This document shows, in pieces, positions 8,454 to 32,024 of a DNA stretch of 64,000 bases. The stretch's first letter is position 1, and each line of letters begins with the position of its first letter. Source of the stretch: Aliiroseovarius marinus (GTDB lineage: Bacteria; Pseudomonadota; Alphaproteobacteria; Rhodobacterales; Rhodobacteraceae); NCBI RefSeq assembly GCF_004360145.1, contig NZ_ML178712.1, positions 600,179 through 664,178 on the forward strand. Direction: 5' to 3'. A program made the position numbers and the translations under genes. The notes under the pieces were generated by a model, which had not been told where the DNA came from, searched no databases, and saw nothing but the letters and a program-made list of their open reading frames with translations.

Positions 8454-9590
8454 TTACGCGCTTAGATCGGTCAGGATCCGGTCCATCATCGCGTCGCAGG
8501 CGGCCAGTTCGGACAGGTCTACGCCCTCGTCCGCTTTATGGCCGTCGCGCGCCATGTCGCCGGGTCCGATCACCACAGTGGGGATACCTTCAGCAGCGAA
8601 GAACCCGGCTTCGGTCCCGAAAGCGACCTTGGTGGTGCCTTGGGTGCCTGCCATTTGACCTGCCCAGCTGACGACCGGATCGTCGGTGGGCGTGTCTAGC
8701 CCGTAATAGGCGTTGGTCTGGGTGATTTCGATGGCATCGGTGTCGCCGAAAGCAGCACCGACGCGCCGAGCGATTTCGTTCAACTCGGACAGGATGTCCT
8801 CGGCTGGGGTATGCGCCAGATATCGAAATTCCATCTCTATCACGGCGGAATCCGGTACGATGTTCAACGCCCTGCCCCCGCTCATCCGGCCGATATGGAC
8901 GGTGGAATAGGGGATGCTATAGGCCGCGTCGGTCGCGCCTTCTGCCAGCCGGGTTTGCAGCGCGCGGACCTCGTCGATGAATGCCGCTGCGACGTGCAGG
9001 GCATTGGTGAAATCCGGCGCCAGCGCACTGTGGCCCGCTTCCCCGTGGCATGCGACCTTCAACGCAACTTTGCCCTTATGCCCCGTCGCTACCTGCATCG
9101 CGGTCGGCTCGCCTACGATCACCGCGCGAGGGCTGCCCAGAAGCGGCGCGAGCGTTGGCATCATCTGGCGAATACCCACGCAGCCGATTTCTTCGTCATA
9201 GGAAATCGCAAGGCTGAGCGGTTCCATCAACGGGGCTTTCGCAGCCCGCTCCGCCAGCGCAAGGGCAGAGGCGAGGAATCCCTTCATATCCGTGGTGCCT
9301 CGCCCATGCAGGCGTTCGCCACGGCGAGTCAGGGTAAACGGGTCGCTGGACCAATTCTGCCCCTCGACCGGCACCACATCCGTATGCGCCGACAGGCACA
9401 CGCCGCCCATTTCGGGCCCAATCCGCGCGAACAGCCCAGCTTTCTGACCGCAGGGCGACGGGATGCTCACAACGGCAAACCCCGCGCTGTGCAGCAGGTC
9501 CTGCACATAGTGGATCAGGTCCAGATTGCTGTCCTTGCTGACCGTCGGAAAGGCAATCAGCCGCTCAAGGATCTCAATTGTGCGGCTCAT
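8454..9590 (-). CDS. argE: M20-family deacylase, acetylornithine deacetylase type
   Basis: A 378-residue M20 metallopeptidase-fold enzyme. The dinuclear zinc site shows as HTD (His69, Asp71), the bridging Asp101 in GTTDMKG, and the Glu133-Glu134 pair in YDEEIGCVG. A dimerisation domain is inserted at about 180-290. The closest functional class is acetylornithine deacetylase, the last step to ornithine in the linear arginine route. In this catabolic setting another N-acyl amino acid is possible. It is convergent with the ThDP gene (9 bp between stops) and lies 60 bp downstream of the TMADH-like gene on the same strand. Confidence 0.75.
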   Translation of the reverse strand: MSRTIEILERLIAFPTVSKDSNLDLIHYVQDLLHSAGFAVVSIPSPCGQKAGLFARIGPEMGGVCLSAHTDVVPVEGQNWSSDPFTLTRRGERLHGRGTTDMKGFLASALALAERAAKAPLMEPLSLAISYDEEIGCVGIRQMMPTLAPLLGSPRAVIVGEPTAMQVATGHKGKVALKVACHGEAGHSALAPDFTNALHVAAAFIDEVRALQTRLAEGATDAAYSIPYSTVHIGRMSGGRALNIVPDSAVIEMEFRYLAHTPAEDILSELNEIARRVGAAFGDTDAIEITQTNAYYGLDTPTDDPVVSWAGQMAGTQGTTKVAFGTEAGFFAAEGIPTVVIGPGDMARDGHKADEGVDLSELAACDAMMDRILTDLSA

Positions 9591-9650
9591 TGTGTCTCCT
9601 GCATTTCGGCATGTGTCCTGCGCGAGTTTTGGGCGAACGAACAGGCGCGG

Positions 9651-11720: not shown

Positions 11721-11816
11721 GTTTCTTCTCCTGTCAGGATCGCGTTATCGGATCAGCGTGACAGATGATCGAGTTAGGCTAAAGTCGTGCTTACGGAAGC
11801 GCGGGTTAGGCTGTGC

Positions 11817-12755
11817 TTAACCCCTAGGCGGGATAGCGCGGCCCGGATAATTCCAGTCGCGGATCACCGTGGCGGCGTGGTCGATGAAGGCGTTAACCGT
11901 CAGCACATTGCGCGCGCCTTCGGGGATGATCAGGCCCAATTGCATGGGGCGCTGGTCGCCCTTCAGCGGAATAAACACCAACCGCCGCCCGTCCGGGGAC
12001 AGGTCGGAATAGGGTCTAATATTGGCGATTGCATAGCCAAACCCGTTTGCCACCATTGACCGCATCACCGCCATGTCCCGCGTGCGTTCGACAATGCGGG
12101 GCTTGCGGCCCGTCTGGTCAAAGAAGCTGAGGAAATAGTTGCTGCTGAGTGGCAGGTCCAACAGGACCATCGGATAGTCCAAAAGCTCGGCCACCTCGAC
12201 CTCGTTCTGGCGGGCCAGCGGGTGACCTTCGGGCACCATCGCATAAGGGGGCAGGGACCGCAGGGGGACGAATTCCAGATCCGGCGGGATTTCGAGGTCA
12301 TAGGACAGCGCCACGTCGATCTGTGCGCGGCGAAGCTGTTCGATCAGACTCAGTTGGTCGGTCTCGATCTGACTGACGCGCACGTCGGGGTATTTCAGTT
12401 CAAACTGCCGCCGGATCGCGGGCAAAAGCACCTGCGCAAAGGTCACAAGGCAGCCGATGTTCAAGGGCCCCTGCACATTGCCCGAGATATCGCCCGCCAG
12501 ACGGTTCAGCGCGTCGGCTTCCTGCAACACCTGCTTGGCCTGCGCCATGAACTGCCGCCCGGCCTGCGTCAGGCTAAGGCCATGGGCGTGTTTGCGGACG
12601 AAAAGCGGCAGGCCAAACTCGTCCTCCAACTGCGAAATCGCCGCCGAGATCGACGGCGACGACACGTTCACCCGCTCGCTCGCCTGCGAGATCGAGCCTT
12701 CCTCGCCGACCGCGACGAAGTATTCCAACTGACGAAGAGTGAACCGCAAAGCCAT
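11817..12755 (-). CDS. LysR-family transcriptional regulator
   Basis: A 312-residue LysR regulator. The N-terminal helix-turn-helix covers about residues 1-62 (LRQLEYFVAVGEEGSISQAS, then SSPSISAAISQLEDEFG), followed by the effector-binding fold. It is the last gene of the minus-strand series that starts with the CzcO-like gene at 18997, 30 bp after the PuuC-like aldehyde dehydrogenase, so it probably regulates its own operon. The inducer should be the substrate of the Rieske oxygenases or an intermediate, and is unknown. Confidence 0.88.
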   Translation of the reverse strand: MALRFTLRQLEYFVAVGEEGSISQASERVNVSSPSISAAISQLEDEFGLPLFVRKHAHGLSLTQAGRQFMAQAKQVLQEADALNRLAGDISGNVQGPLNIGCLVTFAQVLLPAIRRQFELKYPDVRVSQIETDQLSLIEQLRRAQIDVALSYDLEIPPDLEFVPLRSLPPYAMVPEGHPLARQNEVEVAELLDYPMVLLDLPLSSNYFLSFFDQTGRKPRIVERTRDMAVMRSMVANGFGYAIANIRPYSDLSPDGRRLVFIPLKGDQRPMQLGLIIPEGARNVLTVNAFIDHAATVIRDWNYPGRAIPPRG

Positions 12756-18997: not shown

Positions 18998-19326
18998 GTG
19001 TCTGGTCCTCTTGTCTGAATGTCGTGTCGGCGCAGGCGTGCTGGCCGGGTGCGCCGTGGTCGGCGGTCGCATTACATTGGCACGATGGGGCCGACAGAAA
19101 AGAATGTTCTGTGTCAGCCGTGATTAGGCAGTGACTAACATCTAGGCAGCTTGAAAAGGTTAAGCCTAAGCCAAACTTCGCAAGATACGTATTTTTCCAA
19201 TGCCGCGCGGCTTCTAGCCTTTTGATACTGACTCGGAGGTCACCATGCGCGGACAACTCAATCCCCCATCGGGGGACATCATTGCTTTGCACGTATCAAG
19301 ATCTCCCAAACGACGGAGAGATCACA
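18998..19326. promoter_or_regulatory. Divergent regulatory region, Rieske operon / ABC importer
   Basis: This 329-bp stretch separates the CzcO-like gene from the importer. It holds an inverted repeat ACAGAA (19094-19099) with TTCTGT (19107-19112), a candidate operator for a LysR-type protein; a T-run at 19191-19195; and, near the importer, a small open frame with its own ribosome binding site (19245-19334). I could not fix promoter elements with confidence. One region serving both directions would link uptake to the Rieske operon. Confidence 0.5.
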
Positions 19327-19334
19327 ATGAATGA
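19245..19334 (+). CDS. Possible leader peptide upstream of the ABC importer
   Basis: A 29-codon open frame starts with ATG at 19245, 4 nt after GGAGGT, one of the best Shine-Dalgarno sequences in the window. It ends at TGA 19332-19334, overlapping the importer ATPase start (19327) by 8 bp in another frame. It contains a hairpin (TCCCCC 19263-19268 with GGGGGA 19272-19277) and ends with a basic segment including three successive arginine codons CGA-CGG-AGA. The arrangement resembles a translationally coupled leader that could sense arginine or polyamine supply. There is no homology evidence, and it may be chance. Confidence 0.35.
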   Translation: MRGQLNPPSGDIIALHVSRSPKRRRDHNE

Positions 19335-20418
19335 CGACGCCCAAATCGCGGTGGACGTGCGCGATGCGGTGAAACGCTATGGCGATTTCACGGCGCTTCA
19401 GAAGATCTCACTCGGGATTCGCGACAACGAGTTTTTCACGCTGCTTGGCCCCTCGGGCTGCGGTAAGACCACGCTTTTGCGGATGATCGCCGGGTTCGAG
19501 GACGTGACCGAAGGTGCTATTTTCCTTTATGGCGACGAGATTGCGACCCTCCCCCCACATCAGCGCCCGGTGAACACGGTGTTCCAAAACTATGCATTGT
19601 TCCCGCACATGACCATTTTGGACAATGTGGGCTTCGGGTTGGAGATGCGCGGCAAATCGAAATCCGAGGCCCGCGCCCGTGCGGGTGAAATGCTGGAGCT
19701 TGTCCAGCTGTCGCAATTCGCTGCCCGCAAGCCATCGCAATTGTCGGGGGGACAGCAACAACGCGTGGCGCTTGCCCGCGCGCTGGCGCCTTCGCCCAAA
19801 GTGCTGTTGCTGGACGAACCTCTCTCTGCTCTGGACCTGAAGCTGCGCAAAGCCATGCAGATCGAGCTGAAACACATCCAGCGTGAAACCGGCATCACCT
19901 TCATCTTCGTGACCCACGATCAAGAAGAGGCCCTGACCATGTCCGACCGCATCGCCGTCATGTCGGCGGGCCGGATGCAGCAACTGGGCGAACCCAAGGA
20001 CATCTATGAACGCCCGCGCAACATGTTTGTGGCCGACTTCATTGGGGAAACCAACCTGCTGGAAGTGTCCGTGGATGCGATCAATGATGGGCGTGCCATT
20101 TGCCATCTGGGCGGCGGGCACGAGCTGACCTGCAACGCGGTGGACGAGGTGGGCGTCGGGTCCAAAGTGCACATGTCTGTGCGCCCCGAACGCCTGTTCC
20201 TGTCGGACCAGCCGACGGAATCGGAAAGCCTGAAGGGCACCATCGTCGAGAACATCTTTATCGGCACGGACATCACCACCATCATCGACCTGAATGATGG
20301 ACCCAACTTCACCGTCCGCACCTCGAATTCAGATCGCGGCAACAAGCGGATCTTTGAACCCGGCGCGCAGGCCTATGTGAATATGGAGGCAGGCTCGGCA
20401 CGCCTGTTGGTCGACTAA
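19327..20418 (+). CDS. potA: Polyamine-type ABC transporter ATP-binding protein
   Basis: A 363-residue importer ATPase: Walker A GPSGCGKTT (41-49), signature LSGGQQQR (about 139-146), Walker B LLLDEP, a switch His in VTHDQEE, and a C-terminal TOBE domain from about 280 that regulates transport or contacts substrate. The closest class is PotA/PotG (spermidine, putrescine). The ATG at 19327 follows GGAGAG; the frame extends back to 19222 but that part shares sequence with the putative leader. The stop overlaps the next start as TAATG, so the permease gene is translationally coupled. Confidence 0.88.
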   Translation: MNDDAQIAVDVRDAVKRYGDFTALQKISLGIRDNEFFTLLGPSGCGKTTLLRMIAGFEDVTEGAIFLYGDEIATLPPHQRPVNTVFQNYALFPHMTILDNVGFGLEMRGKSKSEARARAGEMLELVQLSQFAARKPSQLSGGQQQRVALARALAPSPKVLLLDEPLSALDLKLRKAMQIELKHIQRETGITFIFVTHDQEEALTMSDRIAVMSAGRMQQLGEPKDIYERPRNMFVADFIGETNLLEVSVDAINDGRAICHLGGGHELTCNAVDEVGVGSKVHMSVRPERLFLSDQPTESESLKGTIVENIFIGTDITTIIDLNDGPNFTVRTSNSDRGNKRIFEPGAQAYVNMEAGSARLLVD

Positions 20419-21344
20419 TGGCGGGGGGTGCGGCATCTGGCGGCTCGTCTGCTGCAGACACCTATGCCGGCGCGCGCAACTGGCTGTTGATGCCGTCATG
20501 GGTGGTGTTGATCGTCTTCGTGCTGGCTCCGGTCTGCATGATGCTGATCTATTCCTTCCTGACGAAAGAATTCCGCGGCGGTGTGATCTGGGAGTTCTCG
20601 CTGAAGGCCTACGACCAGTTCTTCTGTGATCGCGGCTTGTTCGGGGACGAGCCTTGCGCGATTGAATGGACCTATATCACCATCTTCTGGCGCTCGATCT
20701 GGCAGGCAGGGGCGGCGACGATCCTGTCCCTGATCATTGGCTTCCCGACTGCCTATTTCATCGCCACCCGGCCCGAGCGGACCCGCGCCATGTGGGTGTT
20801 CCTGATCACCATCCCCTACTGGGTGAACCTGCTGATCCGCACCGTGTCGATGAAGTTCCTGCTGCGCGACCAAGGCCCGTTGAACGATTTCCTGATCAGC
20901 ATCGGCCTGATCGACAGCCCGCTGCATATCATCAACACCAACCTCGCGGTGCAGCTGGGCCTGTTCTACAGCTACCTGCCCTTCATGGTGCTGCCGATCT
21001 ATGCCTCGGTCGAGCGCTATAACTTCGCGCTGTCCGAGGCCGCTGCAGACCTGTACGCCACCAAATGGACCACACTGCGGCGCATTCTTTTGCCAGCCGT
21101 GAAACCCGGCGTGATTGCGGGCTGTATCCTTGTCTTCGTCCCGTCGCTGGGCGCCTTCCTTGCGCCTGACCTGCTGGGCGGGGCCAAAAACTTCATGATC
21201 GGCTCGCTGATTGAAGAGCAGTTCAAAGGCAATGCAGGCAACTGGCCGTTCGGGGCCGCGGCCTCGATGATCCTGCTGACCATGGTTCTGATCATCTTGC
21301 TGATCTTCGCCCGTCAGCAACGCAAGGCGGAGGCCACGTCATGA
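20418..21344 (+). CDS. potB: Polyamine-type ABC transporter permease (PotB-like)
   Basis: A 308-residue inner-membrane permease with about six transmembrane segments, the first at residues 24-48 ([20 protein letters not shown]). The ATPase-coupling EAA loop is [17 protein letters not shown] near 205-221. The start overlaps the ATPase stop by one base and the end overlaps the next permease by 4 bp, so the transporter genes form one transcript. The solute class is inferred from the family. Confidence 0.88.
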
Positions 21345-22147
21345 GCGCCAAGACCGATGTAAAAACCTATTCCGGCTTCAAGTTCATGACCTTGCTGTGC
21401 TTGGTCATCCTCTATGCGCCGCTGATCGTCGTGACGGTCTATTCCTTCAACGCGTCGAAATCGATCACGGTGTGGGAAGGGCTGTCGCTGCGTTGGTACG
21501 CCGACGTTTTCGTCGGGCCGGAAAGCGGCAAGTTCAAACAGGCGGCGATCAATTCCTTCGTCATTGCCATCGTTGCGGCCACGATCTCGACCACAATCGC
21601 AACCTTGGCCGCCACGGCGATCGTGCGGGGCGGAAAGTTCCGCTTGCGCACGGCATCCCTTGGGCTGATCAGCCTGCCCCTGATGGTGCCGGAAATCGTC
21701 ACCGCCGTTGCGCTGCTGATCTTCTACAACTCTATTGGGTTTGATCGCGGGTTGCTGACCATCCTTGTGGCGCACATCGCCTTTTGCATCCCCTTCGCCT
21801 ATCTGCCCATTCAGGCCCGCATGCAGGGGATCGAGGATACCTATGAACAGGCCGCGATGGACCTTTACGCCACCAAGGCACAGGCCTTCCGCCGCGTTCT
21901 GCTGCCCCTGATGATGCCCGGCATCATCTCGGGCTTCCTGCTGGCCTTCATCGTCAGCCTGGATGACTTCATCATCACCAACTTCGTCAAAGGTGCAGGG
22001 GTGGAAACCTTGCCCACGGCGATTTTCGGATCGGTGAAACAGGGCCTCAAGCCCAACATCATGGCGATCTCGACCATGCTTCTGGCTGTGTCGATCGTGA
22101 TGGTGACCATCTCGTACTTCGTATCGAAGTCCGACAATACGAAATAA
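21341..22147 (+). CDS. potC: Polyamine-type ABC transporter permease (PotC-like)
   Basis: A 268-residue second permease with about six transmembrane helices and the coupling loop [18 protein letters not shown] near 166-183, followed by the PotC-like [10 protein letters not shown]. It overlaps the PotB-like gene by ATGA. It should pair with the PotB-like protein to form the membrane channel. The substrate-binding protein gene follows 18 bp downstream. Confidence 0.88.
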
Positions 22148-22165
22148 TCACAGGGAGCTAACACA

Positions 22166-23194
22166 ATGAAACTTCTTACCCAATCTGCCATGGCGCTGGC
22201 CCTGATGGCCAATACTGCCGCTGCCGAGGGCGATCTGGTCGTCTATCACTGGTTCGAATACATGCCTCAGGAGCTGCTGGATAAGTTCACCGCTGAAACG
22301 GGCATCAACGTCACCATGGACACCTACGATTCCAACGAAGCGATGCTGGCATCGCTCAAGGCTGGCGGCATGGGCACCTATGACGTGGCGGTTCCCGGAG
22401 ACTACATGGTGGCGATCATGGCCGGCGAGGGGCTGCTAGATACCATCGCGGATGGCGAGCTGGCCAACAAAGGCAACATCGCGCCGGAATGGGCCGACCC
22501 AAGTTTCGACCCGGGCCGCACGCATTCGATCCCGTATCAGTGGGGCTCCACCGCGTTCTCGGTCGATACCGAAGCCTATAGCGGCGACATCAACACCACC
22601 GACATCCTGTTCAATCCGCCGGCCGAGCTGTCGGGCAAGATCAACATGCTGGACAGCCAAGGCGAAGTCATGGCGCTGGCCTCGCTTCACATGGGCATCC
22701 CGCAGTGTTCGTCCGACCGCGAGCAGTTGAAAGCGCTGAACGAGATGCTGGTCAACGCCAAGGCGCATTGGGCCTCGTTCAACTCGGACACGGCGAAAGA
22801 GGTTCTGGTCTCGGGCGATGTGGCGGTCGGCATGATCTATGACGGGTTCGGCGCGAAGGCGCGGGCGGAAAAAGCATCGCTTCAATACGCCTTCCCGACG
22901 CAGGGCTATGTGGTCTGGATGGACAACGTGGTTCTGTTGAAAGACGCGCCCAACCGCGATAACGCACTGAAATTCATGGACTTCCTGCTGCAGCCAGAGA
23001 ACATCGCCGCGGTATCGAACTATGCGCGCTATGGCGCGGGCGTCAGCGGTGTGGGTGATTTCCTTGACCCTGAATTGGCGACCTTGCCGGAAGCCAACCC
23101 GCCCGCCACCGCCGGTCAGGGCGCGTTCATCGAGGTCTGCGACGAAGCCACTCAGGCCGTCTATGACCAGATCTGGACCAACGTGAAAAAGTAA
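22166..23194 (+). CDS. potF: Periplasmic polyamine-type substrate-binding protein (PotD/PotF-like)
   Basis: A 342-residue solute-binding protein with a signal peptide (residues 1-20, cut after ANTAAA). The mature part opens with LVVYHWFEYMPQELL, which matches the PotD/PotF layout, where this segment lines the cation-binding cleft with aromatic and acidic residues. AGGGAG precedes the start. It is the last gene of the importer unit and ends at a strong terminator. Ligands of this class are putrescine, spermidine, or in marine bacteria other cationic amines; the ligand here cannot be read off. Confidence 0.87.
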   Translation: MKLLTQSAMALALMANTAAAEGDLVVYHWFEYMPQELLDKFTAETGINVTMDTYDSNEAMLASLKAGGMGTYDVAVPGDYMVAIMAGEGLLDTIADGELANKGNIAPEWADPSFDPGRTHSIPYQWGSTAFSVDTEAYSGDINTTDILFNPPAELSGKINMLDSQGEVMALASLHMGIPQCSSDREQLKALNEMLVNAKAHWASFNSDTAKEVLVSGDVAVGMIYDGFGAKARAEKASLQYAFPTQGYVVWMDNVVLLKDAPNRDNALKFMDFLLQPENIAAVSNYARYGAGVSGVGDFLDPELATLPEANPPATAGQGAFIEVCDEATQAVYDQIWTNVKK

Positions 23195-23211
23195 GTCTTA
23201 ATGACGGTAAG

Positions 23212-23236
23212 GGGCGGCTTCCGGGCCGCCCTTTTT
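23212..23236 (+). terminator. Intrinsic terminator of the ABC importer
   Basis: GGGCGGC (23212-23218) pairs with GCCGCCC (23225-23231) around a 6-nt loop, followed by TTTTT. It lies 17 bp after the binding-protein stop and 18 bp before the amidohydrolase start. Expression of the amidohydrolase therefore needs read-through or its own promoter. Confidence 0.88.
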
Positions 23237-23254
23237 CTATCTGCGGAGGCCGGA

Positions 23255-24286
23255 ATGGAAACCATCTTTACCGAGAAACATCGCCTGCGAAACTCCAAGA
23301 CCGAACTGTGTGGGGGCGAGCTGGTCGAGCCTTTCGAACGCCCCTCGCGCGCCGAATACATTATCGACCGGGTGCGTCAGGTGGGGCTGGGCCCGATCTC
23401 GGACCCCGATGATTTCGGGATGGAGCCGATCTTGGCGGTGCATGACGCAGGCTTTGTGGATTTCCTGCAAACCGCGTGGGACGAATGGGTCGCCGAAGGC
23501 TTCAAGGGCGAGGCATTGACCACAGTCTGGCCCGCCCGCCGCATGTCCTCCCACATCCCGCGCCATATCGAGGGCAAGCTGGGCTACTACGCGCTCGCCT
23601 GCGAAACCTCAATTTCCGAGGGTACATGGGAGGCCGCCTATGCCGCCGCGCAAGTCGCCCTGACCGGGGCCGAGCGGATCCGTCAGGGTGCGACTTCCGC
23701 ATTCGCGCTCTGCCGCCCGCCGGGGCATCATGCGGCCATCGATATGTTCGGCGGCTACTGCTTCGTGAACAACGCCGCCGTCGCTGCGCAATACCTGCTG
23801 GACAAGGGTGCGAAACGGATCGCCATTTTGGACGTGGATTTCCACCACGGGAACGGCACGCAGGACATCTTTTATGACCGTGATGATGTGCTGTTTCTGT
23901 CGATCCACGGCGACCCGATGGACGCGTTCCCGCACTTCCTTGGCCACGAGGACGAGACAGGCACAGGCGCAGGTGAAGGTTTCAACGTGAACTATGCCCT
24001 GCCGCCCGGCACCAGTTTCCCGGCATGGCGCGCGGCGCTGTCGGACGCGCTGGCCCGCGTGGCGGACTATGCGCCCAATGTGCTGATCATCTCACTTGGG
24101 GTGGACACGTTCGAAACCGACCCGATCAGCTTTTTCAAGCTGACCAGTGACGATTTCACCACCTATGGCGCGGATATCGCCACGCTGAACCTGCCCACGC
24201 TGTTTGTCATGGAGGGCGGCTATGACATCGACGAGATCGGCATTAACGCTGTGAACGTGCTGCAGGGATTTGAAGGCGGGGCGTAA
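23255..24286 (+). CDS. aphA: Acetylpolyamine amidohydrolase (histone deacetylase family)
   Basis: A 343-residue zinc deacetylase. The zinc ligands Asp195, His197 (DVDFHHGNG) and Asp284 (LGVDTFE), the catalytic His158-His159 pair (PPGHHA) and the transition-state Tyr323 (GGYDIDE) fall at the same residue numbers as recalled for the characterised acetylpolyamine amidohydrolase of Mycoplana ramosa. The insert near residues 17-33 corresponds to the loop that narrows the active site for slender polyamines. It removes acetyl groups from N-acetylputrescine, -cadaverine or -spermidine. The start at 23255 follows CGGAGG by 5 nt; the frame upstream runs through the terminator. Its place behind a polyamine importer supports the role. 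Confidence 0.92.
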   Translation: METIFTEKHRLRNSKTELCGGELVEPFERPSRAEYIIDRVRQVGLGPISDPDDFGMEPILAVHDAGFVDFLQTAWDEWVAEGFKGEALTTVWPARRMSSHIPRHIEGKLGYYALACETSISEGTWEAAYAAAQVALTGAERIRQGATSAFALCRPPGHHAAIDMFGGYCFVNNAAVAAQYLLDKGAKRIAILDVDFHHGNGTQDIFYDRDDVLFLSIHGDPMDAFPHFLGHEDETGTGAGEGFNVNYALPPGTSFPAWRAALSDALARVADYAPNVLIISLGVDTFETDPISFFKLTSDDFTTYGADIATLNLPTLFVMEGGYDIDEIGINAVNVLQGFEGGA

Positions 24287-24298
24287 GTGCCCCACCCC

Positions 24299-25777
24299 TC
24301 ACCGCATCACAAACGGATTGGCCATCGGCTTGTCCGAGGTGCTGATCCACGTGGTTTTCGTGCGGGTGTAATCCAACACTGCCTCAAGCCCCGCCTCGCG
24401 GCCATAGCCGGACTGGTTATAGCCACCGAAGGGTGCAATCGGCGACACGGCGCGATAGGTGTTCACCCAGCAAATCCCCGCCTTCAGCCGCGCCGACACG
24501 CGATGCGCGCGGGCGACGTTTTCGGTGAAGACGCCGGATCCCAGCCCGAAGGGCGTGGAATTGGCGATGGCGATGGCTTCCTCTTCCGTGTCGAAGGGGA
24601 TCAGGGACATAACCGGCCCGAACATCTCGACCTTCAAGGTCTCAACGTCGGTGTTGGGGCATTCGACCAGCGTTGGCGCCATGTAGTTGCCGGGGCGGTC
24701 CAAGGGCGCGCCTCCGAACCGGATGGTTGCCCCGCCGTCGCGGGCGGCTTGCAGGGTGGTTTCGATGGTTTGCACCTGTGCCGCCGTGCAAAGCGGGCCG
24801 ATATGGGTGTCCGCCGACAACGGGTCGCCGATGACAACCGGCTGCATCTTCTCTTCGATCCGCTGCACAAGCGCATCAAAGATCGACCGATGCACCAACC
24901 CGCGCGACCCCGCCACGCAGCTTTGCCCCGAGGCCCCGAAGTTCCCGGCGATCAGCCCATTGGCCGCGCCGTCCAGATCCGCGTCTTCAAACACCAGAAT
25001 GGGGGATTTGCCGCCCAGTTCCAGCGAGGTGACCGCGAAGTTTTCGGCCGAGTTACGCACCACATGCCGCGCGGTTTCCGGCCCTCCGGTAAAGGCGATG
25101 CGGTCCACATCCGGATGGCGGGTCAGAGGGATGGCGCAGTTTTCTGCATCCCCCGTGATGACTGACACGACGCCGGGCGGGAAGCCTGCCTGCCCGATCA
25201 GACGTGCGAATTCCAGCATCGGGGCAGGCGCGATTTCAGACGCTTTCAGCACCACAGAACAGCCCGCTGCCAAGGCCGGACCCAGCTTCGTCGCGGTCAG
25301 GAACATCTGCGCGTTCCACGGCACGATGGCGACCACCACGCCGATGGGCTCGCGCTTGGTGAAGACATGCATGTCGGGCTTGTCTATGGGCAAAACCGCC
25401 CCTTCGATCTTGTCCGCGAGTCCCGCGTAGTAGCGGTAATAGTCGCCGACATAGGCCGACTGAGACGAGGTTTCGGCCAACAGTTTCCCACTGTCTGTCG
25501 TCTCGATCTCGCCAATGCGCTGGGCATTTTCCTCGATCAGTTCGGCCAGACGATACAGAAGTTTGCCCCGCTGAGTTTGCGTCATGTCGCGCCACGCCGG
25601 GTCGTTCAGAACCCGACGCCCGGCGGCGATCGCTCGATCCACATCCGAGGGCGCGGCACAGGCAAATGTCGCCCAATCTTCCCCCGTCGCCGGGTTTTGC
25701 GTGGCCATGACCTGCCCGTCGGCCCCATCGGACCATTGACCGTCGATAAACAGCTGATAATGCGGTTTTTGTTCCAT
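24299..25777 (-). CDS. NAD(P)-dependent aldehyde dehydrogenase of the ring-cleavage operon
   Basis: A 492-residue ALDH with Asn155 (VPWNAQ), Glu253 (LELGGKSP) and nucleophile Cys287 (SGQSCVAGSR). The start at 25777 follows GAGGG; a GTG at 25789 would overlap the upstream stop. It is the last gene of the minus-strand operon beginning with the DUF1185 gene, 8 bp after the LLM monooxygenase. By analogy with TgnC of trigonelline breakdown it would oxidise the semialdehyde made after ring opening. For homarine, a semialdehyde on the route to N-methylglutamate is expected. The substrate is inferred only. Confidence 0.88.
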   Translation of the reverse strand: MEQKPHYQLFIDGQWSDGADGQVMATQNPATGEDWATFACAAPSDVDRAIAAGRRVLNDPAWRDMTQTQRGKLLYRLAELIEENAQRIGEIETTDSGKLLAETSSQSAYVGDYYRYYAGLADKIEGAVLPIDKPDMHVFTKREPIGVVVAIVPWNAQMFLTATKLGPALAAGCSVVLKASEIAPAPMLEFARLIGQAGFPPGVVSVITGDAENCAIPLTRHPDVDRIAFTGGPETARHVVRNSAENFAVTSLELGGKSPILVFEDADLDGAANGLIAGNFGASGQSCVAGSRGLVHRSIFDALVQRIEEKMQPVVIGDPLSADTHIGPLCTAAQVQTIETTLQAARDGGATIRFGGAPLDRPGNYMAPTLVECPNTDVETLKVEMFGPVMSLIPFDTEEEAIAIANSTPFGLGSGVFTENVARAHRVSARLKAGICWVNTYRAVSPIAPFGGYNQSGYGREAGLEAVLDYTRTKTTWISTSDKPMANPFVMR

Positions 25778-25785
25778 CTGATCCC

Positions 25786-26820
25786 TCACTGAAACGCTGG
25801 CATGACGTCGTCGATGAACCGCGCCAGCGACTCGCGCTTGCGTTCAAAGCTCATGCCGCTGTCGATCCAGAATGAATACTCATCATAGCCCAAATCTTCG
25901 TAGCGTTTGATCTGGTCGATGACCTCCTGCGCGGTGCCGATGGTCAGATCGCGCTTCAGGTTCTCGGGCGCCATAATTTTGTTCGCGGCCATCTCTTCCT
26001 CGGTCAGCTCCTGAATTAGACCCTGACTGACCGGACGCTTATTCTGGAACCACGCGCCGAAATAGCAATAGAAGCGCGACAGCTCTTTCGCCGCCTGATC
26101 CACATCCGCCGCGTCTTTGCCCACATAGGTGTGATGCAGCAGCATGATCTTCGGGCGCTTGCCGTCATAGCCGTCACACGCCGCGTTGAAACGCTCCATC
26201 AGGCTTTCGATTTCCTCGATCCCTTGCCATAGCGGGGTGACCTGAATGTTGAAGCCGTTCTGCACGCCAAATTCGTGGCTATTGGGGTCACGCGCGGCGA
26301 TCCAGATCGGCGGACCGTCCTCCTGTGCGGGTTTCGGGGCCGAGGTTGTGGCGGGGAACTGGAAGAACTCGCCTTCATGGGCGCAATCGCCTTTCCACAG
26401 CTGCGGGACCAGAGGGGCCATCTCGCGCATCCGCTGACCGGCCTCCCACGCGTCCAGACCCGGCATCAGACGTTCATATTCATAGGAATACGCCCCGCGC
26501 GCGATGCCCAGTTCAATCCGCCCGTCGGTCATTAGGTCCGCCGACGCGGCCTCGCCTGCCAGTTTGATCGGATGCCAGAAGGGCGCGATTACCGTGCCGG
26601 TGCCAAGGCGCACATGCTTGGTGTGGTGGGCCAGATTGACCAGCGTCAGAAACGGGTTCGGAGCTATGGTGAAATCCATCCCGTGATGTTCCCCGGTCCA
26701 GACCGCCCGCATCTTGGCGTCGTCGGCCATTTTGCACAGCTCGATGAATTCGTCATTCAACTGCGCTTGCGACTGGTCGGGGGTGATGCGCTCCATATGG
26801 GCGAACAGCGAAAATTCCAT
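25786..26820 (-). CDS. LLM-class flavin-dependent monooxygenase (ring-opening oxygenase candidate)
   Basis: A 344-residue bacterial-luciferase-like barrel protein. Typical features are the N-terminal strand MEFSLFAHMER, VWTGEHHG near 41-48, LGTGTVIAP near 72-80 and RGAYSYEYERL near 109. These enzymes use reduced FMN from a separate reductase, and that partner is encoded immediately upstream (stop 3 bp before this start). In trigonelline catabolism the pair TgnB/TgnA opens an N-methylpyridinium ring. The same pairing here, with a hydrolase and an ALDH, supports a similar role. Confidence 0.87.
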   Translation of the reverse strand: MEFSLFAHMERITPDQSQAQLNDEFIELCKMADDAKMRAVWTGEHHGMDFTIAPNPFLTLVNLAHHTKHVRLGTGTVIAPFWHPIKLAGEAASADLMTDGRIELGIARGAYSYEYERLMPGLDAWEAGQRMREMAPLVPQLWKGDCAHEGEFFQFPATTSAPKPAQEDGPPIWIAARDPNSHEFGVQNGFNIQVTPLWQGIEEIESLMERFNAACDGYDGKRPKIMLLHHTYVGKDAADVDQAAKELSRFYCYFGAWFQNKRPVSQGLIQELTEEEMAANKIMAPENLKRDLTIGTAQEVIDQIKRYEDLGYDEYSFWIDSGMSFERKRESLARFIDDVMPAFQ

Positions 26821-26823
26821 GGA

Positions 26824-27753
26824 TCAGGTCCTTTCTGACAGAGCATGCACATCGCCGCGCTTTGCATCGCCCAGATAAAGGCCAAAGCTGCGGGTGCGGA
26901 ATTCAAGGGCAAACCGCGCCATCATGTCGGCGATGGCGGGGGTGGTGTAAGTAAGGGTCGGAAGGTCGGCGACGGGAATGGCCTGAAGGGGCGCGTCCAC
27001 TTGCACGTCGTCGCTGGTGCCAAGGAAATAGGCGAAGTGCTGGCCACGGCTGGCGTCGTCATAGACCGAGTACGCCGGTCCCAACCGCGCCGAAATCCCG
27101 CGTGTAGCCAGATCGTCCTGCAGCCCTTGCCGCAACTGCCCACGGTCCGAACGCTCGATCTGCGGCAGGCGGTATCCGTCGGGCGTCTGCTCCAGCAGCA
27201 CCGCATCGCCGACCGAGATGATGGCCCCGCAAATCGCGCGGCCTTCTGTCTGTTCCAACGCGGCGCGTTCCAGCCCGAGGCTGAAATACTGCCCGCCCGC
27301 ATAGCCAAGGCCGGGGCCCTCGGACTGGGCAAAATCCGTCACCTTTCCGATCAGGATCTGGTGGTCGCCTGCGGGCAGGGATTTCCACGTGGCGCAGGAA
27401 AACTGCGCAATCGCGCCGTCGATCAGGGGGATGCCATTGGCGTCGTCGCGATGGCTGACTTGGGCAAAGCGGTCGCCCTTGAAGCTGGCGAAGGTGTTGG
27501 ACACGTCTTCCTGCCCCTCGGCCAGAATGTTCACGGCAAAATGCATGCTGCTTGCGAAAGCATCGAAGGATGACAGGAACTTGCCGGGGCAGACGAGCAG
27601 CAGGGGCGGGTCCATCGACACCGATGAAAACGAGTTCGCGGTGAAGCCGAAGGGCGCGCCATCGGGCGTACGCGTCGTGACCACGGTGACGCCGGTCATG
27701 AAACGGCCAAAGGCCTGGCGCAGGGCGCGGGGATCAAACTCGGTCATGGCCAA
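26824..27753 (-). CDS. Flavin reductase with a C-terminal extension (monooxygenase partner)
   Basis: A 309-residue protein. Residues 1-160 are an NAD(P)H:flavin reductase domain (GVTVVTTRTPDGAPFGFTANSF, then the GDHQILIGKV strand). Residues 165-309 form an extra domain I cannot name, beyond the usual size of about 170 for stand-alone reductases. Two-component monooxygenase reductases with C-terminal regulatory domains are known. It supplies reduced FMN to the LLM oxygenase encoded next. The start is 27753 or, two codons in, 27747; the second avoids overlap with the hydrolase stop. Confidence 0.83.
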   Translation of the reverse strand: MAMTEFDPRALRQAFGRFMTGVTVVTTRTPDGAPFGFTANSFSSVSMDPPLLLVCPGKFLSSFDAFASSMHFAVNILAEGQEDVSNTFASFKGDRFAQVSHRDDANGIPLIDGAIAQFSCATWKSLPAGDHQILIGKVTDFAQSEGPGLGYAGGQYFSLGLERAALEQTEGRAICGAIISVGDAVLLEQTPDGYRLPQIERSDRGQLRQGLQDDLATRGISARLGPAYSVYDDASRGQHFAYFLGTSDDVQVDAPLQAIPVADLPTLTYTTPAIADMMARFALEFRTRSFGLYLGDAKRGDVHALSERT

Positions 27754-28523
27754 AGCTCCTTTGCGAAGTCCTGAAGGGCCGCGTTCACGTCAGCGGCATG
27801 GGTCATCGGCATCATGTGCGCGGCGCCCTCTACGATCAGCGCGCGACCTTTCGGGGCCAGTGCGGCCATGGCTTGTGACATGGCGGGGGTTGAGTTCGGC
27901 TCGTCCGCGCCGGTCATGAACAGGGCGGGGCAGTGCAGGGTGTTCAGGGCATCCGTGCCCGGCCCGTCCTGATGGGCGAAGATCGTGTAGGCGGCTTTGT
28001 AGCCCGCCGGGTTCACCTCGCTCAGCCACGTGTGGCAAGCGTCCCGCTCGGGCGAGGCGTCGGTGCCAAACCACCGCTCCAACGTGCCCGAGGGGTCCGC
28101 CATGCTGACCCCATCCAAACTGGCCGCGCGGGCCTGCACCGCGTCCGAGGCGTCAGGGCGGCGGCGGAAGATGGCGTTCAGGGCCACAACGCCTTGCACC
28201 TTTTCAGGATGCCGGATCGCCATGTCCAACGCGATCATCGCGCCCATAGAATGCCCGACCACCATCACCGGCCTGTCGATCCCGGCAGCGATGGCGTCGG
28301 TGTAATCGGACAGGCTCAGATCGCCCGCGGGCAGGGTACTGTCCCCATGTCCCGGCATGTCCACGGCCACCACGTGATAGTGCGGCGACAGCGCGTCCAG
28401 TTGCGCGCCCCATGCCTCGGCCCGCAGGCCGACGCCGTGGATGAACAGAATGGTCGCCCCCTGCCCAGCGGTGATCGCGGACAGGGTGGCGTGATCAGAC
28501 CGCGGCCGGGTTGTCCAGGTCAT
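27744..28523 (-). CDS. Alpha/beta hydrolase
   Basis: A 259-residue alpha/beta-hydrolase. The oxyanion-hole loop is HGVG near 29-32, the nucleophile elbow GHSMGAM carries Ser92, and the C-terminal histidine lies in EGAAHMM. It overlaps the DUF1185 gene by 29 bp and the reductase gene by up to 10 bp, so it is tightly coupled. By analogy with TgnD it would hydrolyse the N-formyl/enamide product of ring cleavage. RutD-like roles are an alternative, but no RutB-type amidohydrolase is present. Confidence 0.85.
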   Translation of the reverse strand: MTWTTRPRSDHATLSAITAGQGATILFIHGVGLRAEAWGAQLDALSPHYHVVAVDMPGHGDSTLPAGDLSLSDYTDAIAAGIDRPVMVVGHSMGAMIALDMAIRHPEKVQGVVALNAIFRRRPDASDAVQARAASLDGVSMADPSGTLERWFGTDASPERDACHTWLSEVNPAGYKAAYTIFAHQDGPGTDALNTLHCPALFMTGADEPNSTPAMSQAMAALAPKGRALIVEGAAHMMPMTHAADVNAALQDFAKELWP

Positions 28524-29094
28524 GGCCCAGATCCTTCAGGTCCTGATAGCGGTCGCCGATGCGGTGATGGGGACGTCCGGTGGTGGCTGCCCCCAGCACC
28601 ACGACGATCTCGTCCGCGCGCGGCGCATCTGGGATCGCGAACTGCAAGGTCAGGTAATGCGAGCGGCGCCCCGCGTCGTTCTTGTCCATCAACGGCACCA
28701 TGATCGGCGCGTTCGCAGGCCCACGGGTGTTGGTGAACGCCAGATAGGATTTCGCGCCCACGGCCTCGCGATAGAAATTACCGAACCGCAGGGTGTGGAT
28801 CAGTCCCGAGGCATGCTCGACCTCGCCATCCAGACCGACGACGGCGGCTTTGCCATAGGCCTCGATCGCGTCACCGCTTCCGGCCAACGCAATCATGCGT
28901 TCGGTCATCATCTCGCCCAGCACGGGACCAAAGGCGTGGATCTCGGGCTTCAGGTCTTCGACAAAGCGCCCGGCCCACGGGTTCTTGACCACGGCGGCCA
29001 CGGCGAACATGCGCCACGGGGTGTCGGCGGGCTTGAACCCCTCGATCAGAACCTCTTCGTCATAGGTTACGATTTTGCGGATTTCGGGCGTCAT
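28495..29094 (-). CDS. DUF1185 / amino acid synthesis family protein
   Basis: A 199-residue member of the DUF1185 (AA_synth) family, named after an old link to amino acid production; I know of no established reaction. Conserved-looking stretches are GFKPADTPWRMFAVAAV near 19, SYLAFTNTRGP near 118, and the C-terminal RPHHRIGDRYQDL. It is the first gene of the operon, 106 bp from the divergent LysR gene. A role as isomerase or accessory hydrolase in the pathway would be consistent with the gene order but is a guess. Confidence 0.78.
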   Translation of the reverse strand: MTPEIRKIVTYDEEVLIEGFKPADTPWRMFAVAAVVKNPWAGRFVEDLKPEIHAFGPVLGEMMTERMIALAGSGDAIEAYGKAAVVGLDGEVEHASGLIHTLRFGNFYREAVGAKSYLAFTNTRGPANAPIMVPLMDKNDAGRRSHYLTLQFAIPDAPRADEIVVVLGAATTGRPHHRIGDRYQDLKDLGHDLDNPAAV

Positions 29095-29200
29095 TTGGGT
29101 CTCCTATTCGCTGGCCGACATCATCGGAACGCCCTGATATTTTGACAAATGATAGATTTGCTGGCTTAGGTATTAAAAAGACTAATGGCTGGTTTGACCC
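29095..29200. promoter_or_regulatory. Divergent LysR/operon control region
   Basis: The 106 bp between the DUF1185 gene and lysR contains a TTGACA hexamer at 29142-29147 on the plus strand and an interrupted dyad TTAG (29166-29169) with CTAA (29182-29185), a possible LysR-type binding site in the usual divergent arrangement. A matching -10 is not clear. Confidence 0.45.
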
Positions 29201-30058
29201 ATGAAGAAATCGCTTCCCCCGCTGACATGGTTTCGCGCCTTTGAAGCCGCCGCCCGGCATCTTAGTTTCACCGCTGCGGGGGATGAGATTGGGCTGACCC
29301 AATCGGCGGTCAGCCAGCAGGTGAAAGCATTGGAATCGCGGCTGCGCGTGTCGCTGTTCACCCGCCATGCACGCGGGTTGTCCCTGACCGATGACGGGCG
29401 TAAATTGCTGCCGCAGGTGGGTGCCGCGCTGGGCACCCTTGCCGCCGCGACCGAGGTGTTCGACGCGGGCCCGACCCAGAACCTGTTGACCATCGCGACC
29501 TCGGTCAGCGTCGCGCAATGGATCATTGCCCCGCATCTGCAGAGCTTCACCCGAACGCATCCGAATGTCCGCGTGCGGTTCCTCAGCGCGATCTGGCCAG
29601 ACGAATTCAACGCCTCGCGCGCGGATGTGGAAATCCGCTTTGGGTCCGCCAAACAGGTCGGCAAGAATGCCGAGTTACTGACGCCGGACGGGCTGGTTGC
29701 AATGAAATCTCCGACTCTTTCCGGTGCGCTGGAAGACTTGCCATTGATCGAGGCTGTCGGCACCTCGGGCGGGTGGAAAAGCTGGTCAGAGCAGATCGGC
29801 GGGCGATGTGAACCGACGCTGTTCGCGGACTCATTCGGCATGGCCCTGCACCTTGCGGCGGAAGGAAATGGCGTGGCGCTGGTCAGCGAGCTGTTGATCC
29901 AAAATGCGCTGCACACGGGCCAGTTGACCCGCGCCCACCCGGCCTCGATCCCCAGCAACGAAGGCTATTACCTGTCGGTCAATGACCAGAACCCCGCCGC
30001 GGTCGATTTCCGCGCGTGGCTGCTGGATGTGCTGTCGAACGCGGCGGATCAAGCCTAG
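29201..30058 (+). CDS. LysR-family transcriptional regulator of the ring-cleavage operon
   Basis: A 285-residue LysR regulator with an N-terminal helix-turn-helix (LTWFRAFEAAARHLSFTAAG, then LTQSAVSQQVKALESRL) and an effector domain. The classic divergent position relative to the five-gene operon makes it the likely activator, matching TgnR or HomR in gene layout. Its TAG stop overlaps, within a CCTAGG palindrome, the stop codon of the convergent transporter gene. Confidence 0.88.
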   Translation: MKKSLPPLTWFRAFEAAARHLSFTAAGDEIGLTQSAVSQQVKALESRLRVSLFTRHARGLSLTDDGRKLLPQVGAALGTLAAATEVFDAGPTQNLLTIATSVSVAQWIIAPHLQSFTRTHPNVRVRFLSAIWPDEFNASRADVEIRFGSAKQVGKNAELLTPDGLVAMKSPTLSGALEDLPLIEAVGTSGGWKSWSEQIGGRCEPTLFADSFGMALHLAAEGNGVALVSELLIQNALHTGQLTRAHPASIPSNEGYYLSVNDQNPAAVDFRAWLLDVLSNAADQA

Positions 30059-30984
30059 GAATAGGACGGATGTATCGCGCCCCCGCGTGCCAGTATCCCA
30101 GCCAGCGCTAGACCCGACACCGCGTGCCAGATCCCCCAAAACGCCGCGACCACGGCCATCCCGCCCAGCCCGCTAAAGAACCCGAAGATCAGGATCAGCC
30201 CAAGGCCGGAGTTCTGGATGCCGGTTTCGATCATGATGGCGCGGCGATCAAAGGCGGACAGTCCGGCCAGCGTGGCGACAGCAAACCCGGCCCCCAGTGC
30301 AAGGGCATTGTGGGCGATGACAAGGGCGGCGACGGCCTCGGCATACTCCAAGAACAACGCCCAGTTCGCGGCCAGCGCCAGCACCACGAAGGCGATGAAA
30401 ATCCCCATCGACAGATACTGAAGCGGTGTGCGCAGTCGGCGCGTAATGTCGGGCCGCTTGGCGTTCAGGATCACCCCAAGGCACAAGGGCAGCACCAGCA
30501 TGACGCCCACGGTGATCGCCACCGACACCGGATCAATCGAGGTCTGCCGGAGGATCGCCCGCGTCGGTTCATAGAGGCTGCCCCAGAACGCGATGTTGAT
30601 CGGCGTCAGCAGGATCGCAAAGATCGTCGCAAAGGCGGTCATCGACACGGAAAGCGCTGCGTTCCCGCCTGCCCGATGGGTGATGAAGTTCGAGATATTG
30701 CCCCCCGGACAGGCCGCCACCAGCATCAAGCCCAAGGCAATCGACGGGCGCGGGGTGGTCGCCAGAACCAGACAGAAAGTCAGTGCAGGCAGCACAAGGA
30801 ATTGCGATGCCAACCCGGTCAGCAGGGGCTTTGGATCCCGTGCCAGCTTCTTGAAATCACTGGGTTTCAGGTCAATCGCGATCGAGAACATGACGATCGC
30901 AAGCACGGCGTTCAGGATCTGCAGGCTTGTGGGCGAGAAGTTCAGCATCACCTCGTCAATGCCAGCTTGTGCTGGTGTACTCAT
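30055..30984 (-). CDS. Bile acid:sodium symporter family (BASS) transporter
   Basis: A 309-residue polytopic membrane protein with about nine hydrophobic helices. The family motifs are the CPGGNISNF segment near 89-97 and GIQNSGLGL near 253-261, both part of the sodium and substrate site. Members carry organic anions, including pyruvate, pantoate and sulfonates. The start at 30984 is preceded by GGGGGAC; the longer frame to 31173 overlaps the divergent acyltransferase. It converges on the LysR gene of the ring-cleavage operon, so an anionic or zwitterionic substrate of that pathway is one candidate. Confidence 0.85.
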   Translation of the reverse strand: MSTPAQAGIDEVMLNFSPTSLQILNAVLAIVMFSIAIDLKPSDFKKLARDPKPLLTGLASQFLVLPALTFCLVLATTPRPSIALGLMLVAACPGGNISNFITHRAGGNAALSVSMTAFATIFAILLTPINIAFWGSLYEPTRAILRQTSIDPVSVAITVGVMLVLPLCLGVILNAKRPDITRRLRTPLQYLSMGIFIAFVVLALAANWALFLEYAEAVAALVIAHNALALGAGFAVATLAGLSAFDRRAIMIETGIQNSGLGLILIFGFFSGLGGMAVVAAFWGIWHAVSGLALAGILARGGAIHPSYS

Positions 30985-31172
30985 GCTGCGTCCCCCGTCC
31001 CTTATTTGCCGTCTCGGCCTGTAACCGATTGGCGACAGGTCAAGTTTTGAACACCCACCACCCTTTGGGCAAGCAATAAACGAATTGACCGCGGGGGCGG
31101 TGGGATTGCAGTCTTGGATTTCCACTTCCATGCGCCGAGCCGATTTTGCCCCGACAGAAGACTGAAAACCCA

Positions 31173-32024
31173 ATGGACGAGCTGTTGCGCGCGCGCCTTC
31201 GGCTGACCGAGCGTGCGCATTTCCGGCTGAAGGGTTTGCGCCTTCTGATGGGGTCCGTCGATCTGTTCAGTCGCACCCTGACGGGGCAGGCCTTCTTTGC
31301 GCTGCGCGAAACGGAACAGGTGTTGCGAGACCTCGATGGCCGCACAGGCCCGGATCTGGTGAAGGCGCTTTTAGAGATGCAGGGTGGCACCCAGATCACC
31401 ACACATGGGATTGAAAACATCCCCACCCAAGGCGCGGTGATCATTGGGGCCACGCATCCCGTTGGGACGTTCGATTTCATCTCGCACGCGGGTGCGTTGC
31501 TGGATCACCGGCCCGATCTGAAAGTCGTCGCCAACCGCGAGGCGCAGCGGTTTCTGGGCGCCGAGCGCATCGTTGCGGTGGACCTTGACCGGTCGGACAA
31601 GGTGCTGGGCGCGCGGCAGACCCGGGCCGACATGCAGGCGCATCTGGAAGAAGGTGGCGCTCTGCTGGTCTTCGGATCTGGACGCGTGGCGGATATGGCC
31701 AAGGGGCTGCTGGTCGAACCCCCGTGGCGCACCGGCATCACCCGTGTGTCTGCGGAAACGGGCGCCCCGATCGTGCCCGCATCTGCCGATCTTCGAAACT
31801 CGCGCCATTACTACCGCACCCGAAAGCTCGCCCGCATTCTAAGCGGCAACAACGAATATATCGGCCGCGAGGTCGCCTCGCTGCGCTATGTGTCAGAGCT
31901 GCTGGCGAAACTGGGTGGTAGCTATGAGGTCCGCTATGGCTCCGTCCAACCGCCTGGATCAACGCCGGAAGCGCTGCAAGCGCTGGCGGAAGAGTTGATT
32001 CCGGGACTGTATCGACCTGACTAA
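31173..32024 (+). CDS. Lysophospholipid acyltransferase family protein (PlsC-like)
   Basis: A 283-residue acyltransferase. The catalytic motif is HPVGTFD near residue 94, the His-x5-Asp variant seen in the NHPxGxxD subgroup instead of the usual His-x4-Asp. A second block is VFGSGRVADM near 165-174. It should acylate a lysophospholipid or an amino-lipid precursor at the inner membrane. The ATG at 31173 is chosen over a TTG at 31146; neither has a strong Shine-Dalgarno sequence, so the start is uncertain. Confidence 0.72.
   Translation: MDELLRARLRLTERAHFRLKGLRLLMGSVDLFSRTLTGQAFFALRETEQVLRDLDGRTGPDLVKALLEMQGGTQITTHGIENIPTQGAVIIGATHPVGTFDFISHAGALLDHRPDLKVVANREAQRFLGAERIVAVDLDRSDKVLGARQTRADMQAHLEEGGALLVFGSGRVADMAKGLLVEPPWRTGITRVSAETGAPIVPASADLRNSRHYYRTRKLARILSGNNEYIGREVASLRYVSELLAKLGGSYEVRYGSVQPPGSTPEALQALAEELIPGLYRPD

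Follow-up and report, generated by a model that had tools for sequence, protein, structure and literature searches.

A Tgn-Type Operon of Separate Lineage in Aliiroseovarius marinus, Probably for N-Methylpyridinium Ring Opening, with Homarine as the Favoured Substrate

A five-gene operon with a divergent LysR regulator was analysed in a 64,000-nucleotide stretch of Aliiroseovarius marinus DNA (contig NZ_ML178712.1, positions 600,179 to 664,178; hereafter the window; GC 61%, genome size 3.13 Mb). Transcribed from the minus strand (24299-29094), it encodes, in order of transcription, a DUF1185 protein, an alpha/beta hydrolase, a flavin reductase, a luciferase-like monooxygenase (LLM), and an aldehyde dehydrogenase (ALDH). 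As judged from sequence comparison, the operon is a Tgn-type lineage separate from the trigonelline (Tgn) clusters proper, with its own LysR and a remodelled ALDH. Its reaction, taken as a class, is very probably the flavin-dependent opening of an N-methylpyridinium ring, and on balance we favour homarine, ahead of trigonelline, as the substrate to which the operon is adapted.

Kinship with the Trigonelline Clusters

A tblastn search of plasmids with the window LLM returned 330 records at an E value of 1e-30. The identical five-gene order was found on S. meliloti pSymA, between the nod and nif genes, in Ruegeria and Leisingera, and on a plasmid of Acinetobacter sp. PK01, where RefSeq uses the names tgnA, tgnB, and tgnC; since it recurs in distant genomes, the order is not due to chance. 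In A. baylyi DSM 14961, whose locus came from a genome scan returning at least 80 loci, the corresponding proteins were 64% (LLM), 56% (ALDH), 42% (reductase), 38% (hydrolase), and 69% (DUF1185) identical to those of the window. The Acinetobacter clusters thus share homologues of all five enzymes, their order, and the LLM active-site loops; they differ in carrying GntR and DUF1330 genes where window-type loci have LysR, and in a linked succinate-semialdehyde dehydrogenase (SSADH), a carboxymuconolactone-decarboxylase-like gene, and a permease, none of which is linked to window-type loci. The pSymA cluster has the five genes in matching order, including a full-length reductase homologue (SMa0793 of S. 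meliloti 1021; PDB 3rh7), but continues into a NIPSNAP gene and an ABC transporter, and its LLM belongs to the Tgn clade. Wild-type S. meliloti is reported to grow on trigonelline while a delta-pSymA strain does not (PMC4207669).

The original prediction held that the operon reproduces the tgn enzyme set. The enzymes and their order do match A. baylyi, PK01, and pSymA, and the nearest named relatives are Tgn proteins; the wording is nevertheless too strong, as the window LLM lies in a sister clade of TgnB and not inside it, the regulator is of another family, and the ALDH is distinct in both clade and pocket. A flavin reductase with a C-terminal extension beside the oxygenase is common to both, as are the hydrolase and DUF1185 partners. 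An oxygenase inside the TgnB clade, a TgnC-type lactol dehydrogenase, a linked SSADH (TgnE), and GntR were not found in the window.

The Monooxygenase and Its Active Site

We compared 18 window-type loci, five of which come from one genus (the window included) and have LLMs 94-100% identical, with 116 Tgn loci. The latter were all rows whose best reference was an S. meliloti or Acinetobacter protein, minus nine loci that branch elsewhere or with deeper sequences (L202, L203, L205, L208, L267, L269, L271, L272, and L273; L205 was counted among the deep rows). From a single scan with an Acinetobacter query came 80 of the 116, and some contigs entered twice (for example L104/L138).

Trees built from 164 LLMs (FastTree) and from 55 (IQ-TREE) both placed the window LLM in its own clade beside Tgn. 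In the IQ-TREE tree, the window-type clade of 12 rows had a support of 100/99, and of 99/96 together with four deeper rows, while support for the Tgn clade was moderate (84/75). A predicted model of the LLM (mean pLDDT, the predicted local distance difference test score, 90.8) was used to place the active-site loops, which are nearly the same in the window type as in Tgn and differ in a second, more distant LLM clade. Near these loops, position 201 is Asp in 109 of the 116 Tgn sequences and Ile, Met, or Ser in the window type, and position 229 is Arg in 79 of the 116 and His in 17 of the 18 window-type sequences; partial shifts occur, among other positions, at 7, 113, 185, 198, and 325. Arg-38 and Phe-190, the fixed differences of the LLM, were set aside as evidence of specificity, since the predicted secondary structure puts them where barrel strands begin, far from the end that holds the active site.

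Positions conserved to at least 90% within both groups but in different states (14-18 window-type against 47-49 Tgn rows) numbered 29 in the ALDH, 5 in DUF1185, 4 in the hydrolase, and 2 each in the LLM and the reductase; lowering the threshold to 85% and using all 116 Tgn rows gave 9 for the LLM. Against single Tgn subgroups the ALDH showed 40-49 fixed differences, compared with 7-15 among the subgroups themselves. An excess was also seen for the hydrolase (7-9 against 2-3) and DUF1185 (11-20 against 4-9), and none for the LLM (5-11 against 6-11) or the reductase (9-10 against 5-11).

The Aldehyde Dehydrogenase

Five ALDH pocket positions separate the two groups. At 170, 172, 177, 294, and 296, all 17 window-type and all three deep sequences carry Ala, Met, Thr, Asn, and Gly, whereas 48-49 of the 49 Tgn rows carry Ser, Leu, Val, Ile, and Ala. 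The numbering is that of ALDH2, mapped by motif, and the five positions lie close to the catalytic Cys and to the PWN motif. In a second ALDH set, the window type (11 rows) and deep rows (5) kept these states without exception; Asn at 170 appeared in one of 18 Tgn rows and Gly at 296 in eight of 13 second-clade rows, so that Gly-296 may not be a derived state.

The ALDH tree gathered window-type and deep rows into one clade (100/100) on a stem of 0.70. Loci L267 and L269, which fall outside both groups in the LLM tree, joined Tgn in the ALDH tree. These trees and residues place a change in the ALDH, or its replacement, on the stem of the window type. The unchanged LLM loops together with the five changed ALDH positions suggest that the ring-opening chemistry was kept and that the aldehyde is a different one. 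This pairing would be expected of a carboxylate at another ring position and an aldehyde unable to close into the TgnC lactol.

Regulator, Promoter, and Locus Context

A LysR homologue (at least 40% identity) stands in 16 of the 18 window-type loci and in none of the 116 Tgn loci, while an SSADH (at least 50% identity, within 9 kb) occurs in none of the former and 42 of the latter (Fisher p 7.5e-19 for LysR and p 8e-4 for SSADH; both p values overstate the case, as the loci are not independent). A linked SSADH is not strictly Tgn-defining, as 74 of the 116 Tgn loci lack it. Also present in Tgn loci, with no case in the window type, were GntR (106 of 116), DUF1330 (81), a cytosine permease (52), and an S. 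meliloti-type binding protein (36). The swap of regulator and the lack of a linked SSADH point to a different inducer and give no sign of a succinate-semialdehyde end point. Against the PRK11139/GcvA model the window LysR scored 207 bits, below the cut-off of 288.

The divergent promoters of 15 window-type loci (104-159 bp; 106 bp in the window) could be aligned. They share a putative operator-like site, ATTAG-N5-YTAAT, which is exact in all but two (L128 and L218) of the 16 window-type loci that carry LysR, thus in 14. Among the Tgn loci it was found only in L047 (2107-2121), several kb from the cluster, whose LLM lies at 9001-10035. GcvA binding sites contain CTAAT. The elements are listed with the genes in Table 1.

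Table 1. Genes and promoter elements of the operon and its regulator in the window.
Feature	Position	Strand	Basis
DUF1185/PF06684 (AA_synth), TgnF-like, 199 aa, operon gene 1	28495-29094	-	Pfam 246.7 bits (cut-off 27); 69% identity to A. baylyi protein
Alpha/beta hydrolase, TgnD-like by position, proposed N-deformylase	27744-28523	-	Pfam Abhydrolase_6; 38% identity to A. baylyi protein
Flavin reductase with C-terminal domain, TgnA-like	26824-27747	-	Pfam Flavin_Reduct, residues 13-157; 42% identity to A. baylyi protein
LLM, TgnB-like, proposed ring-opening enzyme	25786-26820	-	Pfam Bac_luciferase; 64% identity to A. baylyi protein
ALDH, clade distinct from TgnC	24299-25774	-	Pfam Aldedh; 56% identity to A. 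baylyi TgnC-like protein
LysR, GcvA-like, divergent	29201-30058	+	Pfam HTH_1 and LysR_substrate
Putative operator-like site, ATTAG-N5-YTAAT	29172-29186	-	1 match in 64 kb, 0.01 expected
Second promoter element, ATTTGTCAAA in the window	29141-29150	-	TTTGTCAAA-like block in the alignment of 15 promoters; 2 matches in 64 kb, 0.11 expected

All six reading frames are open, and the packing of five minus-strand genes beside a divergent LysR, as originally predicted, was borne out in coordinates, Pfam families, and spacing. The DUF1185 and hydrolase genes overlap by 29 nt and the hydrolase and reductase genes by 4 nt; 3 nt separate reductase and LLM, and 11 nt separate LLM and ALDH if the latter starts at its ATG (an alternative GTG would give a 4-nt overlap). 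Purine-rich sequence resembling a ribosome-binding site precedes the ATG codons at 27747 (reductase, 307 aa) and 25774 (ALDH, 491 aa), which were therefore favoured over longer reading frames. The 29-nt overlap was also seen in L033, L034, and L035, and is absent in S. meliloti.

Some loci were incomplete. Within the window type, no LysR or DUF1185 was found in L127 (a short contig), no LysR or ALDH in L129, no DUF1185 or reductase in L131, and no reductase in L263, L264, and L266. The four deep loci showed neither a window-type LysR nor GntR near the cluster, nor a reductase, and one of them, L205, has the monooxygenase and hydrolase only. In L263, L264, L266, L204, L206, and L207, where no reductase was found near the LLM, it would have to come from elsewhere in the genome.

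Among 162 genomes from a low-GC order with small genomes, 11 carried the deep-type LLM, and all 11 belong to a single genus out of seven; some of these small genomes have the ALDH type of the window. Six loci of this order keep the DUF1185, hydrolase, LLM, and ALDH genes, and neither a reductase nor a LysR from the reference set was found in them. Directly upstream of the DUF1185 gene in L204 (11138-12967), L308, L309, L312, and L313 lies a gene for a 609-residue protein (79-98% identical among them) that had no Pfam match at 1e-5 and was not seen in L310 or L311. In L207, a FAD-dependent oxidase directly downstream of the deep-type ALDH (10913-12259) weakly resembled N-methyl-L-tryptophan oxidase, below the cut-off, and is possibly an N-methyl amino acid oxidase.

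Proposed Pathway and Choice of Substrate

RefSeq names the substrate of TgnC as (Z)-2-((N-methylformamido)methylene)-5-hydroxybutyrolactone. This name implies that trigonelline is cut between C5 and C6, C6 becoming the N-formyl group and C5 an aldehyde that closes onto the 3-carboxylate. In homarine, with its carboxylate at position 2, an equal cut would leave an aldehyde unable to close that way, and its ring-opened aldehyde predicts what was observed, an unchanged oxygenase site next to a changed ALDH pocket. In the pathway we propose, the reductase would supply reduced flavin, the LLM would cleave C5-C6 to leave an N-formyl group and an aldehyde, the ALDH would oxidise this aldehyde, and the hydrolase would remove the formyl group, giving 2-(methylamino)glutaconate. 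The DUF1185 protein would handle the resulting N-methyl enamine, and LysR, bound at ATTAG-N5-YTAAT, would sense the substrate or an intermediate. 2-(Methylamino)glutaconate would in turn yield N-methylglutamate by reduction, or 2-oxoglutarate and methylamine by hydrolysis, and neither route needs an SSADH. Reported surface-ocean concentrations of homarine and trigonelline were 1.85 against 0.07 nM in one region and 14.3 against 0.14 nM in another, roughly 26-fold and 100-fold (PMC8269262).

The homarine operon homABCDER, reportedly described by Ferrer-Gonzalez et al. in Nature Microbiology in 2026, is said to come from Rhodobacterales and open-ocean oligotrophs. Five enzymes and one regulator in a marine-type member of the Rhodobacterales would fit its six genes.

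The main competitor is a divergent trigonelline pathway in which the Tgn substrate was kept, GntR gave way to LysR, and the ALDH was replaced or drifted. We consider it the less likely course, though one with a real share of the probability. It would account for active-site loops common to the window type and TgnB, and for LLM differences that are few and no greater than those between Tgn subgroups. An SSADH-like gene does exist elsewhere in the genome, and among 21 genomes of the window's genus, six carry the window type, five the Tgn type, ten neither, and none both, a distribution suggestive of alternatives, although an absence of shared occurrence among 21 genomes is weak evidence. Against the trigonelline pathway stand the five ALDH pocket states, which split the groups almost without overlap, and the lack of any linked SSADH or Tgn-type transporter in all 18 window-type loci. 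A third N-methylated heteroaromatic, neither trigonelline nor homarine (a carboxamide or pyridone, for example), could explain both the ALDH pocket and the changes at LLM positions 201 and 229, but no particular compound is supported, whereas homarine is an abundant marine candidate; we judge such a substrate improbable. A pyrimidine (Rut) pathway, or an unrelated two-component flavin monooxygenase pathway, is very improbable. The matches of the reductase to the RutF model (82.5 bits; cut-off 254.75) and of the hydrolase to the RutD model (64.3 bits; cut-off 238.5) are weak, scores on which Rut was rejected, and the nearest named relatives and the five-gene order are those of Tgn clusters. The RutF score speaks likewise against the pyrimidine alternative that the original prediction had named.

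Several observations weigh against homarine. The near-identical LLM active site is just what trigonelline as substrate would give, and the SSADH-like gene of the window genome is 55% identical to the Acinetobacter one. The deep sequences L204 and L205 sit on long branches, and their exact place in the LLM tree is unsure. Action of TgnA/TgnB on homarine has been judged improbable on steric grounds (PMC8269262), an objection that would carry little weight if the ring is cut between C5 and C6. The operon has no reductase that would make N-methylglutamate. N-methylglutamate dehydrogenase (Mgd), moreover, is a reported participant in homarine catabolism (PMC13390433), perhaps not a universal one, and was not recognised in the window genome, whose single SoxA/MgdC-type protein fell, in a FastTree tree, outside the MgsC-linked clade taken for Mgd. 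Mgd also failed to discriminate between trigonelline and homarine, as it tracks both cluster types. Counting in itself for homarine, at least two SoxA-type matches were found in 9 of 11 genus members carrying either cluster against 2 of 9 non-carriers (p 0.02; G547, 56% complete, was left out); the carriers missing the second copy were the window genome and G540, but all five Tgn-type carriers have it.

The supposed Mgd clade was defined, in a FastTree tree that took in some of the copies where a genome has several, as the smallest clade holding six proteins near MgsC-like matches, neighbours from which we infer the name. Short-type PF01645 matches (profile about 54-312) were taken for MgsC because they lie near SoxA-type matches; within the genus they occur only in the non-carrier G543. 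In the carriers of the genus, the second SoxA-type copy would thus lack an MgsC partner, which is suggestive only. Fourteen window-type genomes were divided between those with a protein in the supposed Mgd clade (seven), just outside it (three; G072, G139, and G115), or further off (two; G253 and G525), and those with no second copy (two). The NCBIfam soxA model was rejected as a test of Mgd versus sarcosine oxidase, since the window protein and four proteins of the supposed Mgd clade all exceeded its cut-off. The window genome yielded a single heterotetrameric operon of the sarcosine-oxidase/Mgd type (G000:C4, L242:7796-13325), which exceeds the NCBIfam soxA and soxB cut-offs.

DUF1185, the Hydrolase, and the Reductase

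The original prediction described the DUF1185 protein as having no known function, which is out of date: its A. baylyi homologue is TgnF, reported to stimulate TgnE, and the DUF1185-family protein HcdD is reported as homologous to TgnF (PMC7913881). Homologues of known structure include 2qtp and 3byq, and PMC2954203 describes a hexamer, chorismate-mutase-like, in which conserved His, Glu, and Arg residues lie at an interface. In our set the gene was present at 16 of the 18 window-type loci, at 115 of the 116 Tgn loci, at three of four deep loci, and at 22 of 42 other loci (deep ones included); within the stretch examined it was not seen in the remaining 20 of these more distant loci. Across 64 aligned cluster members, 40 positions are invariant or have a single exception, and the polar set kept in all 64 includes Glu-93, His-94, His-100, Arg-109, Arg-124, Arg-144, His-146, Arg-178, and Arg-182.

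Because DUF1185 is kept in clusters without a linked SSADH, stimulation of TgnE is unlikely as its general role. Its retention in window-type and low-GC-order clusters of that kind, with the conserved polar set, leads us to a tentative catalytic reading, in which DUF1185 would be an enamine/imine hydrolase with a RidA-like role on a chorismate-mutase-like fold, freeing N-methylamine after deformylation. We hold this at well below even odds, and slightly lower than at first because the 20 distant loci show that DUF1185 is not obligate throughout the family. Were it correct, the reported stimulation of TgnE by TgnF would reflect the supply of TgnE substrate. With similar reserve, the window operon, its LysR site, and the remodelled ALDH could then represent a marine specificity branch of a DUF1185 ring-opening family.

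In the hydrolase, Ser-92 and His-236 were located by motif and are both conserved. The C-terminal domain of the reductase, about 150 residues, had no Pfam family match and no function was found for it, in line with what had been predicted; a solved structure, 3rh7, nevertheless covers a homologue at full length. The predicted order of strands and helices prompted us to consider a Nudix domain, which was rejected in view of the missing Pfam match and a profile comparison with one Nudix protein (probability 0.14%).

Second Monooxygenase Clade and Flanking Genes

The second LLM clade (about 34-42% identical) likewise brings together an LLM, flavin reductase, hydrolase, ALDH, and often DUF1185, but with different active-site residues and gene order; its plasmid members lie beside ProX- or amino-acid-type transporters. 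Two Rhodobacterales members, L156 (3956-14372) and L151 (1950-12468), have LLMs each 37% identical to that of the window. In L156, which has DUF1185, the LLM stands beside carnitine-dehydrogenase-like (below cut-off), BKACE, and Rid-family genes, and the flavin reductase is fused behind a CoA-transferase (702 aa). L151 has an acyl-CoA dehydrogenase, detected by scan, and resembles L156 in other respects as judged by eye. We considered this clade as the homarine set, as it occurs in some small genomes, and set it aside because its active-site residues differ and L156 lies with carnitine-dehydrogenase-like, BKACE, and CoA-transferase genes; it may serve homarine or another betaine.

On the other strand, 12 nt from the end of the operon, a block at 19222-24286 encodes a polyamine-type ABC transporter (ATPase, two permeases, and a PotD-like binding protein) followed by a histone-deacetylase-family protein, perhaps for uptake and deacetylation of an acetylated polyamine. 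It was rejected as part of the system because it adjoins the operon in only two of 18 window-type loci and its binding protein is 24% identical to the S. meliloti one. A BASS transporter gene (30055-31173), present in five of the 18 loci, all of one genus, was likewise left out.

Implications

The operon offers a concrete test of the role of DUF1185. If the preference for homarine proves right, the operon would mark the marine bacteria able to use a nitrogen-bearing metabolite that ranks among the most abundant in plankton. The ALDH pocket and ATTAG-N5-YTAAT would then be sequence markers that split homarine-type from trigonelline-type clusters, useful because the LLMs of both are so alike that annotation would confuse them.

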